Shown: positions 17,862 through 47,161 of the stretch, one piece after another
Layout of the letters: each line of letters begins with the position of its first letter
How positions within the stretch are numbered: the stretch's first letter is position 1
Origin: Candidatus Saccharimonadota bacterium
GTDB taxonomy: Bacteria; Patescibacteriota; Saccharimonadia; Saccharimonadales; Saccharimonadaceae
Assembly: GCA_017437945.1 (NCBI GenBank)
Contig: JAFRWP010000005.1
Span: 1-64,000 of the forward strand
Direction of reading: 5' to 3'
Length of the DNA stretch: 64,000 nucleotides
Translations under genes and position numbers: made by a program
Notes under the pieces: model-generated
The model's input: the letters and a program-made list of their open reading frames with translations, nothing else
What the model was told of the DNA's origin: nothing
Databases searched by the model: none

Positions 17862-19184
17862 ATGGTAAAAATGGATGATATAGTTAGCCTTTGCAAGCGT
17901 CGTGGTTTTATTTGGCAAGGAAGCGATGTGTATGGCGGGATGGCCGGGACTTGGGATTTTGGTCCACTCGGCGTGTCTTTAAAAAAGAAGATTATGGACG
18001 CCTGGTGGAAGTACTGGGTGGATGACCGTGAGGATATGTATGGCGTTGATGCAGCCATTATTATGAACCCGCGTACCTGGATTGCTTCTGGCCATACGGC
18101 GACTTTTGCAGATCCATTGGTGGAATGTGGCGCATGTCATGGTCGCTTCCGCGCTGATAAGATTGCAGACGGAATCTCTGAGAGCGTGACAACGGAAGAG
18201 TTTAAGGCGCTAAATGTGAAGTGTCCGACTTGCGGCAAGATTGAGTGGGGTGAGATTCGCAAATTTAACATGATGTTTCAGACGCATGTTGGCCCAGTTG
18301 ACGATGATAGTTCGATTGCTTATCTTCGCCCAGAAACGGCGCAGGGTATCTTTACGAACTATAAGAATGTAGTCGATACGATTTATCCAGATTTGCCATT
18401 TGGTCTTGCGCAGCAGGGTAAGGCTTTTCGTAATGAGATTTCGCCACGCGATTTCATCCTGCGTGACCGTGAATGTTCTCAGATGGAGATTGAATATTTT
18501 GTCGATCCAAAGACTTGGGAAGAACATTTTGAGAAATTACTCAAGCAACAGCATGAATTTTTGACTGACGTGATGGGATTGGAGCCAGAGCGCATCCATG
18601 ATCTCGAGGTGGAAGCGGAAGATCGTGCACATTACTCAAAACGTACGGTGGATATTGAGTTCGATTATCCAAACGGCCGCGAGGAATTAATGGGCCTGGC
18701 ATACCGCACGGACTTTGATTTGCAGAATATTCAGCGCGAAAGCGGCAAGAATATGGAATACATCGTGAAAGGTTCGACTGAACGCTTCGTGCCACATGTA
18801 ATTGAACCATCTATCGGCGTCGAGCGCTTGTTCTTAGCTGTTTTAACGTCTGCTTATAAAGAAGACGAAGTAAATGGCGAGAAGCGCGTTTACTTGTGTC
18901 TGAGCGAGGATTTGGCACCATATCGTTTCTGCGTGTCGCCACTGCTCAAGAATAAGCCAGAGCTGGTTTCGAAAGCAAAGGAAGTTTACGATTTGCTACG
19001 TAAGAAATACGGGAATGTCACTTGGGATGATTCTGGCAATATTGGTAAGCGCTATCGCAAGCAGGACGAGATTGGTACGCCAAAGTGCGTAGTAATTGAC
19101 TTTGATACGCTTGAAAATGACACTGTAACGGTGCGTGATCGCGATACGACCGAACAAGTACGCGTAAAAATCAACGAATTATAA
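17862..19184 (+). CDS. glyS: glycyl-tRNA synthetase, single-chain (alpha2) type
   Basis: Charges tRNA-Gly. 440 residues with the class II core: GSDVYGGMAGTWDFGPLG near the start, motif 2 (FRNEISPRDFILRDREC), motif 3 (PSIGVERLFLAVL) and a C-terminal anticodon-binding domain from LAPYRFCVSPL. An inserted zinc-ribbon-like segment has CGAC and CPTCG. This is the dimeric, eukaryote/archaea-like form, not the alpha2beta2 GlyQ/GlyS form. AGGAG (17851-17855) precedes ATG 17862 at ideal spacing, so translation needs the longer leader RNA that carries the glycine-rich peptide and hairpin. It converges on rel. Confidence 0.96.
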   Translation: MVKMDDIVSLCKRRGFIWQGSDVYGGMAGTWDFGPLGVSLKKKIMDAWWKYWVDDREDMYGVDAAIIMNPRTWIASGHTATFADPLVECGACHGRFRADKIADGISESVTTEEFKALNVKCPTCGKIEWGEIRKFNMMFQTHVGPVDDDSSIAYLRPETAQGIFTNYKNVVDTIYPDLPFGLAQQGKAFRNEISPRDFILRDRECSQMEIEYFVDPKTWEEHFEKLLKQQHEFLTDVMGLEPERIHDLEVEAEDRAHYSKRTVDIEFDYPNGREELMGLAYRTDFDLQNIQRESGKNMEYIVKGSTERFVPHVIEPSIGVERLFLAVLTSAYKEDEVNGEKRVYLCLSEDLAPYRFCVSPLLKNKPELVSKAKEVYDLLRKKYGNVTWDDSGNIGKRYRKQDEIGTPKCVVIDFDTLENDTVTVRDRDTTEQVRVKINEL

Positions 19185-45300: not shown

Positions 45301-46935
45301 TTCACTCGCGAGGGTTACACTTTTACCGGTTGGAATACGAAAACCGACGGTACTGGTGACAGCTATGCTGCAAATGATGATTTCGTGTTGGGCGTAGATC
45401 AGACGACTCTTTATGCTCAGTGGCAGGCCAATCCATCCAAAATTACTTATGTTGCGAATGGCGGTACTGGCTCTATGTCGGATACTACAGGTGTAGTTGA
45501 TCAGACCGTTCAGGTGTCTAATAATGGTTTTGCCCGCGAAGGCTATACCTTTACGGGTTGGAATACGAAAGCTGATGGGAGCGGGACAGATTACGGAGAA
45601 AATGCAAATTATGCGCTCACTCCTAATGACCTTACTCTTTACGCTCAATGGCAGGCTAACCCATCCAAGATTGTATATAACGCCAATGGTGGCACTGGCT
45701 CCGTAAATGACACCGAAGGCAACGTTGATGAGACCGTCCAGGTCGCCGAGAACGTATTCACTCGTGATGGTTACACCTTCACTGGCTGGAACACTAAAGC
45801 TGACGGTACTGGCGATAGCTATGGTGCTGGCGACGATTACACTTTGCTACCAGAACAAACCATTCTTTACGCTCAGTGGCAAGCCAATCCGTCCAAGGTT
45901 ACCTATAACGCCAACGGTGGCGCCGGCTCCATGATCGATACTACCGGTGTCGTAGATCAAACCGTTCAGATTGCCGATAACGCATTCGTACGCGATGGCT
46001 ACACTTTCACCGGATGGAATACCAAAGCTGATGGCAGTGGTGTAGACTACGCTGAGGGGGTAGATTATACGCTTACGCCAAATACGCTCGAACTATTTGC
46101 ACAATGGTCCGCAAACGCTTCCAAGATTATATACAACGCTAATGGTGGCACTGGCACCGTAAATGATACCGAAGGTAGTGTTGATCAAACCGTTCAAATC
46201 GCCGAGAACGCATTCACTCGTGATGGTTACACTTTTACTGGCTGGAACACTAAAGCTGACGGTACTGGCGATAGCTATGCCGCAAATGACGATTTCGTAC
46301 TAGGAGCAGAACCGGCAGTACTTTATGCGCAGTGGGAAGCGAAACCTTCAAAAGTATCTTACGCAGCGAATGACGGTGCCGGCTCGATGGATGACACGAC
46401 TGGTATGGTAGATCAGACTGTACAGATATCCGAAAATGAATTTACTCGTGAAGGTTATACCTTCGTTGGTTGGAATACTGAAGCCGATGGCAGCGGTGTA
46501 GATTACGCTGAAAATGTAGACTTTTCATTATTGCCGAGCGAATTAATACTCTATGCTCAGTGGGAAGCTAACCCTTCCAATATTATCTATAACGCCAACG
46601 GTGGTAACGGCACAATGGATAATACCCAGGGTGTCGTAGATCAAACCGTTCAGGTTTCAAACAACGAATTCGCGAGAGACGGATATGAGTTCATTGGTTG
46701 GAATACCGAAGCTGATGGCAGCGGGGAAGAATATGTCGCCGCCGATGACTATACACTCACCCCTAGCGACTTAACTCTTTATGCGCAATGGAAATTGATC
46801 CCGGTCACTCCGGCTGATGGTAATGAGGACAAAAACCCGGCAACCGCAGATTATGGCGTGGCACAATTTGTAGGTACTATAATAGCAATCGCAGCTGGTG
46901 CATTCGTAGCGATTAAGCGTTACTCTAGGCGATAG
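42328..46935 (+). CDS. giant B-repeat adhesin with beta-helix head and NPATA anchor
   Basis: 1535 residues. The signal peptide ends at GAFA (about 25). Residues about 30-520 form a right-handed beta-helix with repeated GGAI/GGG motifs (KSGGAIRVS, NGGAIMLQ, GGGIVAVGG, GRGGGAMAIFG), as in Pmp-like adhesins. About 600-1490 hold one partial and eleven full B-repeats of 76 residues, each with a YTFTGWNTKADG core and an LYAQW end. The tail has NPATADYG, a hydrophobic helix and KRYSRR, a probable variant sorting signal. Probably an elongated stalk carrying a binding head, suited to host-cell attachment. Single-gene unit with its own terminator. Confidence 0.88.
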   Translation: MKQKLISWIFGTALVSLMMSSGAFAADVGSFADLKTAIAGDETEITITSDFSFDENITVSREIVINGNNKVLSRAEGFSDTLFSVSSEGNLTINELIFDGGAPGWSMDFENGSHDGSGYFRVPLISSDSDILETNPLIVSAGELNVTSSTFRNIRNNSTDISKSGGAIRVSAGKTQINDTTFNHCASRRDGGALYVAGGEAVVKDSSFIGNAAGAGYEGQVHGGAVYVNGASNISIDNTLFQDNFAQHNGGAIMLQAKGSDIEVSNSTFTHNMNGNDGAAIALESTSTKHSIRITDSVFDGNQGLATKGQSMGTIWLDGWKNDVTMPAIFSNLTFLNNHTAHGSSFASYGTNAPYCIFDNIESYNNTANGMGGFFIQEGTYLISGANIHDNQSGNGGGIVAVGGNVVVDDSVIKNNTAGRGGGAMAIFGSLTIKNTEITNNHATSYGGGISAYSMYASYGNPELHLENVLIKDNSADNAGGGLAIQDTGTAHSTVTADDATKIYDNSAAVAADDVLYTHANSTAGANTTLDNIGIAGLLGIDGWYYDTADDRFKDTDDPTVFNDYVNNDGSVAFYIKAAGISNGDYDGNGGSTDALPVTIKYGEKFVVDDDIPVREGYTFVGWNTKADGSGTELKAGDEYDGSDGWTLYAQWEPNPSKIVYNANDGNGSTPNTEGVVDETVQVSDNGFTRDGYTFTGWNTKADGTGTNFDEGDDYLLTVDDLNLYAQWEANPAKLSYDANNGVGTMADTTGVTDQTVTVSDNGFTRDGYTFTGWNTKADGTGTDYDEAADYVLPAGNSVLYAKWQANPSKIVYNANSGTGSMNDTTGVVDQTVQVSDNGFTREGYTFTGWNTKADGTGDSYGAGDDYTLLPEQTTLYAQWQANPSKVTYDANGGTGSMNDTTGVVDQTVQISENTFTRDGYTFTGWDTKADDSGVDYAENADYTLTSENLTLYAQWRANPSKVTYDANGGTGSMSDTTGVVDQTVQVSDNGFTREGYTFTGWNTKTDGTGDSYAANDDFVLGVDQTTLYAQWQANPSKITYVANGGTGSMSDTTGVVDQTVQVSNNGFAREGYTFTGWNTKADGSGTDYGENANYALTPNDLTLYAQWQANPSKIVYNANGGTGSVNDTEGNVDETVQVAENVFTRDGYTFTGWNTKADGTGDSYGAGDDYTLLPEQTILYAQWQANPSKVTYNANGGAGSMIDTTGVVDQTVQIADNAFVRDGYTFTGWNTKADGSGVDYAEGVDYTLTPNTLELFAQWSANASKIIYNANGGTGTVNDTEGSVDQTVQIAENAFTRDGYTFTGWNTKADGTGDSYAANDDFVLGAEPAVLYAQWEAKPSKVSYAANDGAGSMDDTTGMVDQTVQISENEFTREGYTFVGWNTEADGSGVDYAENVDFSLLPSELILYAQWEANPSNIIYNANGGNGTMDNTQGVVDQTVQVSNNEFARDGYEFIGWNTEADGSGEEYVAADDYTLTPSDLTLYAQWKLIPVTPADGNEDKNPATADYGVAQFVGTIIAIAAGAFVAIKRYSRR
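44299..46791 (+). repeat. eleven tandem 228-base coding repeats (B-repeats)
   Basis: Each unit encodes about 76 residues from (K)IVYNANGG to LYAQWQANPS. The protein units are very similar, for example units 3 and 7 in the DSYGAGDDYTLLPEQ block, while their codons differ at many synonymous positions. The copies are therefore old or recoded rather than freshly amplified. Confidence 0.9.
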
Positions 46936-46984: not shown

Positions 46985-47040
46985 ACCTAATCTAGTCTTT
47001 ACAAAAGAGGACGCCGTAGTATATAATAGTTACAACTGAT

Positions 47041-47117
47041 GCGGGTTTAGCTCAGTTGTTTAGAGCGCTTCCTTGCCAAGGAAGAGGTCGAGAGTTAGAG
47101 TCTCTTAACCCGCACCA
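47041..47117 (+). tRNA. tRNA-Gly (anticodon GCC) with U19-A56 elbow
   Basis: 77 bases with CCA. Acceptor GCGGGTT/AACCCGC, D-stem GCTC/GAGC, anticodon arm CTTCC-TTGCCAA-GGAAG, T-stem GAGAG/CTCTT (a G-U at 49-65). The D-loop is AGTTGTTTA, so G18 is kept but G19 is U. The T-loop is TTAGAGT, so C56 is A. The two changes restore a Watson-Crick pair at the otherwise near-invariant G19-C56 tertiary position. The other four tRNAs here have normal elbows. It reads GGC and GGU. Confidence 0.93.
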
Positions 47118-47161
47118 TCCAGAAAATGACGCCCGATGGGGTGATTTTTTTATGTTTAGTT

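Follow-up and report, generated by a model that had tools for sequence, protein, structure and literature searches.

The tRNA-Gly(GCC) gene at 47041..47117 (+) almost certainly encodes a working tRNA with a compensatory exchange at the elbow, in which U19-A56 takes the place of the G19-C56 pair. The exchange had been pointed out in a preliminary description of the window (the whole stretch of 64,000 nucleotides analysed here, positions 1 to 64,000 of contig JAFRWP010000005.1 from a Candidatus Saccharimonadota bacterium), and ARAGORN, Rfam and the sequence itself confirm that it is real. Going beyond that description, we found that the swap extends throughout the host's class, has arisen convergently in other phyla and is confined to G/C-rich anticodons. 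The complete reading that we favour, an ordinary elongator with a covarying elbow pair that would tune the decoding of strong codons, has close to an even chance of being right.

The tRNA-Gly(GCC) gene and its host genome

ARAGORN calls a complete tRNA-Gly(GCC), and Rfam RF00005 matches it with 69 bits (gathering score 29) over model positions 1-71, the full length of the model. CCA is encoded, the discriminator is A73 and every stem is intact. In standard numbering, the D-loop reads A14-G-U-U-G18-U19-U-U-A21 and the T-loop U54 U55 A56 G57 A58 G59 U60 (UUAGAGU). Alignment to the family model places the retained G18 and the U19 that replaces the usual G19 at 47058..47059 (+); its partner A56, usually C56, lies at 47097 (+), as read from the sequence and from covariation. 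The G19-C56 identity is absent, and the tertiary pair is retained in Watson-Crick form as U-A. The anticodon loop UUGCCAA spans 47073..47079 (+), with the anticodon GCC at 47075-47077, and the T-arm at 47090..47106 (+) carries G49-U65 and G51-C63, which are strong EF-Tu pairs according to PMC4052509.

The gene is solitary. A sigma-70-like promoter predicted by consensus (TTTACA, 18-nt spacer, TATAAT; 11/12 hexamer matches) lies at 46998..47027 (+), its end 14 bases ahead of the gene. Beyond the tRNA, at 47130..47150 (+), comes a terminator-like hairpin with a T run, one such element being found against 0.2 expected from shuffles. A pseudogene is ruled out by conservation and by the intact flanks. 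Directly upstream, the end of another gene occupies ~46500-46935 (+); its product is of surface type, having InlB-like repeats (YAQW motifs) and, at the C terminus, a membrane anchor.

A census covering 950.5 of the 952.3 kb of the genome returned 45 tRNA genes, 43 of them with the canonical G18-G19/U55-C56 arrangement; the only two elbow deviants are Gly(GCC), with U19-A56, and Cys(GCA), with A18/G55. The preliminary description had proposed a check for a further GCC isoacceptor with a normal elbow, and none occurs in those 950.5 kb: Gly(GCC) is single-copy, and the remaining Gly tRNAs, UCC and CCC, have the normal elbow. In long open reading frames, GGC and GGT together make up 12,939 of the 15,729 Gly codons (82%), so that this tRNA, going by its anticodon, is expected to read most Gly codons of the genome, as GGU and GGC.

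All three Gly tRNAs carry A73 as opposed to the bacterial U73. The window encodes a glycyl-tRNA synthetase of the dimeric alpha2 type at 17862..19181 (+) (NF003211, 573 bits, cut-off 312), a type that agrees with the A73 discriminator, and this is the enzyme expected to charge tRNA-Gly(GCC). Searching the genome with E. coli glyQ and glyS as queries gave nothing better than E = 0.02.

TruB is also present in the genome (L337:6460-7125 (-)). The T-arm consensus for TruB (psi55) is GUUYRANYC (PMC7912444); the T-arm GUUAGAGUC of tRNA-Gly(GCC) breaks it with the A at position 56, and A19-U56 lineages agree with it. Judging from the consensus mismatch at 56, psi55 may be absent in U19-A56 lineages. 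As a separate observation, the encoded TruB is only 222 aa long, without the C-terminal PUA part present in E. coli TruB.

Distribution and covariation of the 19-56 pair

The 77-base tRNA is identical at all positions in five genomes, including this one. The wider comparison concerns the class of the host, most likely Saccharimonadia within the Patescibacteria (CPR) to judge by relatives and genome size; the assembly yielded no 16S gene, and TM7 16S primer sites were likewise absent. A Gly(GCC) pattern with positions 19 and 56 left open found matches in 272 of the 295 genomes of the class, and among the matches listed from those 272 genomes, all have U19-A56 or A19-U56. A W19/W56 pattern matched 111 of 117 genomes, a few of these with Ala matches only. 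The lineage-specific elbow envisaged in the preliminary description is therefore borne out, as is its argument against sequencing error; confinement to one strain, which it had named as evidence against the idea, is not the case. Both sequencing error and a single-strain change were rejected given the identical tRNA in five genomes and the class-wide state, and the swap is neither chance nor error. Conservation of U19-A56 in particular holds in part: a swapped Watson-Crick pair is kept throughout the class, but the exact U-A is not, since A-U occurs too. The two states are interleaved, both being found inside families f1, f22 and f26 and inside genus g19. Gly(GCC) shows no return to G-C in the class, although its two transitions would be easier than an interchange of U-A and A-U. 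Class Gly(GCC) genes carry A73 throughout, with U73 replaced.

Apart from chance matches, a search for C56 across the 295 class genomes brought up a single degenerate array and a single gene, the second of these on a contig of 4.2 kb. The latter (genome G313) was discarded as a true exception, having U73 and a different body, and is probably contamination. The match in genome G093 falls within the array of degenerate tRNA-like pieces (L257, G093:C1:544600-545000), a region in which ARAGORN finds no tRNA-Gly; the array perhaps belongs to a phage or mobile element.

The complementarity of the double change, first noted for a single gene, holds generally. Among 94 distinct Gly(GCC) sequences from all sources, the 19-56 pair is A-U in 58, G-C in 22 and U-A in 14, with no mismatches. 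All 94 are Watson-Crick, compared with at most 58 in 2000 shuffles, and this pairing is informative because base 19 played no part in the selection of the set: part of it was picked for A or U at 56, and none for the base at 19.

Outside the class, Gly(GCC) in most other Patescibacteria-type families has G19-C56 and U73, while three such families (f88, f118 and f75) present A19-U56. In named bacterial genomes, A or U at 56 together with U73 occurs in at least 113 stretches; taxa among the matches listed include Clostridia, Bdellovibrionota, Sporolactobacillus, Labilibaculum, Flavobacteriales, SAR86, other Gammaproteobacteria and Peregrinibacteria. Every full-length gene examined from these matches has A19, and in the swapped genomes checked from other phyla, all full-length GCC genes are A19-U56 (for instance, 3/3 in Sporolactobacillus, 5/5 in Clostridium tepidiprofundi and 3/3 in Labilibaculum). 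Since all full-length GCC genes are swapped in those genomes, the swap is convergent and affects the working tRNA rather than a spare copy. Dual sets, with swapped and normal tRNAs side by side, were accordingly discarded for other phyla, none being found among the full-length genes of swapped genomes. Of the 199 genomes in the phylum to which a Clostridia MAG belongs, the centre genome alone carries the swap, which is thus rare in general.

Matches in Acinetobacter (L136), Aeromonas (L166) and a Bdellovibrio-type genome (L212) are 3' fragments only, and these genomes also have full-length genes with their usual elbow. The fragments carry C56U and sit beside unrelated DNA, possibly as attachment-site remnants; no integrase was seen by eye near the Acinetobacter and Aeromonas fragments within the stretches examined.

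Anticodons that carry the swap

Scans for any anticodon covered only tRNAs that combine a D-stem of the GCNC type with T54-T55. Within the class, they returned swapped Gly GCC, UCC and CCC, Ala UGC, GGC and CGC, and one Val GAC; for anticodons not ending in C, Pro UGG was the only one, with 45 matches in 44 of 255 genomes. Swapped Gly GCC, Gly CCC and Pro CGG occur in the phylum of a Bdellovibrionaceae MAG, together with one Phe tRNA that has an unpaired-type G19.U56. Other Patescibacteria-type families contain swapped Gly GCC, Ala CGC, Thr GGU, Arg UCG, Pro GGG and His GUG; a single Thr CGU there has G19.U56.

Taken together, the paired swap occurs mainly in Gly, Ala and Pro tRNAs, and rarely in those for Thr, Arg, His and Val. 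At least two G or C are present in 13 of 13 paired-swap anticodons, and none of the 8 scanned species with at most one G or C is swapped (Fisher p = 0.0025, for a grouping made post hoc and a figure that ignores phylogeny). The correspondence is not complete on either side. Three swapped anticodons (Val GAC, Thr GGU and His GUG) have only moderate strength; the strong anticodons Arg GCG, Arg CCG, Asp GUC, Trp CCA and Val CAC were never found swapped in the scans. In the host genome itself, Ala GGC and CGC, Pro CGG and UGG, and Arg tRNAs have strong anticodons and keep G19-C56. Ala(UGC) varies inside one genus, with G-C in this genome (G000) and A-U in three others (G017, G096 and G099).

Possible roles of the elbow swap

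G19-C56 is regarded as nearly invariant, since it serves as a stacking surface for the ribosome, RNase P and many further factors. The outer tertiary pair 19-56 forms the flat face of the elbow, and it is this face that meets the A-site finger, L5 and the L1 stalk (PMC4810234). In addition, tRNA bodies are described as tuned against the strength of codon-anticodon pairing, tRNA-Ala(GGC) being the best case (Ledoux et al. 2009, as cited in PMC4695836 and PMC11231383). The almost exclusive location of the swap on tRNAs for strongly pairing codons suggests that the elbow is used to fine-tune decoding, a role consistent with its prevalence in Gly, Ala and Pro tRNAs and with the missing reversion to G-C in the class.

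Mechanistically, tRNA-Gly(GCC) is very probably an ordinary elongator, the sole one for GGU and GGC in the genome, and its 19-56 pair would have given up G-C in favour of a different Watson-Crick pair in an ancestor of the class, flipping afterwards between U-A and A-U and never back to G-C. The L-shape would be retained since 19 and 56 still pair, minus one hydrogen bond. In turn, the weaker elbow would compensate for very strong codon-anticodon pairing, with a uniform rate and accuracy of ribosomal selection as the outcome for such tRNAs. We hold this last step, the tuning of strong-codon decoding by the elbow swap, to be a real possibility at a little under even chances. Slightly more doubtful is the proposal in its general form: position 19-56 would be an evolutionary tuning site in bacterial tRNAs, changed repeatedly from G19-C56 to A-U or U-A where anticodons pair strongest (Gly, Ala, Pro and some Thr and Arg), thereby balancing codon-anticodon strength, and permanently fixed in tRNA-Gly(GCC) of the class.

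Such a mechanism would extend to the elbow the anticodon-arm tuning known from tRNA-Ala(GGC). With that case, as summarised in the citing papers, the swap shares a body feature (there the 32-38 pair) tied to a very strong anticodon, and the tRNAs concerned are of one type (Ala, Gly, Pro). The tuning described there, on the other hand, resides in the anticodon arm, whereas here it would reside in the elbow. Compared with canonical bacterial tRNA-Gly(GCC), the cloverleaf, G18, U54-U55, R57-A58, G53-C61, the anticodon, the strong EF-Tu pairs of the T-stem and the encoded CCA are all shared; the differences are U-A rather than G-C at 19-56 and A73 rather than U73, the latter as found with dimeric GlyRS.

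The main rival to tuning is a relaxed constraint with neutral compensatory drift, whereby any Watson-Crick pair at 19-56 suffices and the isotypes whose synthetase ignores the elbow drift; we judge it unlikely, though a serious contender. The unbroken Watson-Crick pairing at 19-56 is what would be expected if pairing alone matters, and the variation of the Ala(UGC) elbow within a genus points the same way. The alanyl-tRNA synthetase of this genome is also relevant. C-Ala is the part of AlaRS that reads the tRNA elbow. The AlaRS found here (L336:7268-9148 (-), contig C4) belongs to the NF002436 type, AlaRS without C-Ala: at 627 aa it stops past the SAD editing domain, with a clean stop codon followed by the next gene, which would leave tRNA-Ala at least freer to drift. 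This absence covers tRNA-Ala at most and explains neither the anticodon bias nor Gly and Pro. Drift also does not predict the absence of the swap from Lys, Ile, Phe, Met and the weak Thr and Val anticodons, nor the lack of any return to G19-C56 in class Gly(GCC), and it leaves unexplained why unrelated phyla, which may have a full AlaRS, show the swap in the same isotypes.

An anti-determinant role, with the swap concealing the tRNA from a factor whose binding involves stacking on G19-C56 (a wrong synthetase, a tRNA-cleaving toxin or a T-box RNA), is improbable. Many RNAs and proteins do read G19-C56 as an exposed face of the tRNA (PMC4810234), and mischarging is conceivable for class tRNA-Gly, where U73 is replaced by A73, common to Ala and Val. 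However, A19-U56 coexists with U73 in other phyla, and the swap is likewise seen in cognate Ala, Pro and Thr tRNAs. Moreover, Rfam reports no T-box or other non-tRNA family above threshold anywhere in the window, the region upstream of GlyRS included.

Very improbable is gene conversion carrying one swapped elbow from Gly into Ala and Pro genes. Gly(GCC) and Ala(UGC) of this genome are 84% identical over positions 7-67; against a common source, Ala(UGC) in genus g19 is A-U or U-A depending on the genome, the listed Gly there being U-A, and the Pro D-stem differs, which would require two separate short patches.

The special role in wall synthesis or regulation raised in the preliminary description, by analogy with Staphylococcus, is the least credible reading: position 19 is altered as in those tRNAs (PMC4052509), but this is the sole GCC isoacceptor, facing 82% of Gly codons with G18 and strong EF-Tu pairs kept, and the identical swap in Ala, Pro, Thr, Arg and His tRNAs disfavours it further. 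In Staphylococcus, the wall tRNA-Gly species exist in addition to normal isoacceptors; they read UU or CU at 18-19, and their EF-Tu pairs are the weak A49-U65 and A51-U63 (PMC4052509). A changed position 19 in a tRNA-Gly is what the present gene shares with the S. aureus non-proteinogenic set; it differs in being the only copy, in keeping G18 and strong pairs, and in having position 56 changed to match 19. A wall tRNA of this type was consequently rejected, each of its three tested features (extra isoacceptor, UU or CU at 18-19, and A49-U65 with A51-U63) failing here.

A class that decodes most of its Gly codons with a U-A or A-U elbow indicates that pairing is needed at 19-56, and not base identity. 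If the link to strong anticodons is true, the tRNA tuning code gains a site outside the anticodon arm, which would be useful in tRNA engineering and also for annotation programs, where such genes incur a penalty. We found no mention of U19-A56 or A19-U56 in tRNA in the open literature, within the incomplete coverage of our search.

The other deviant of the genome, tRNA-Cys(GCA) (G000:C13:237-310 (-), equivalent to L020:237-310), represents a second altered elbow pair, with A18 and G55 replacing G18 and U55 and a T-loop of the form UGCRAMU. An equally incomplete literature search returned no report of A18-G55 in tRNA-Cys. The same A18/G55 state is found in L038, L040, L046, L074, L075, L080, L084, L100 and L116, spread over several families of the class and one other CPR family.
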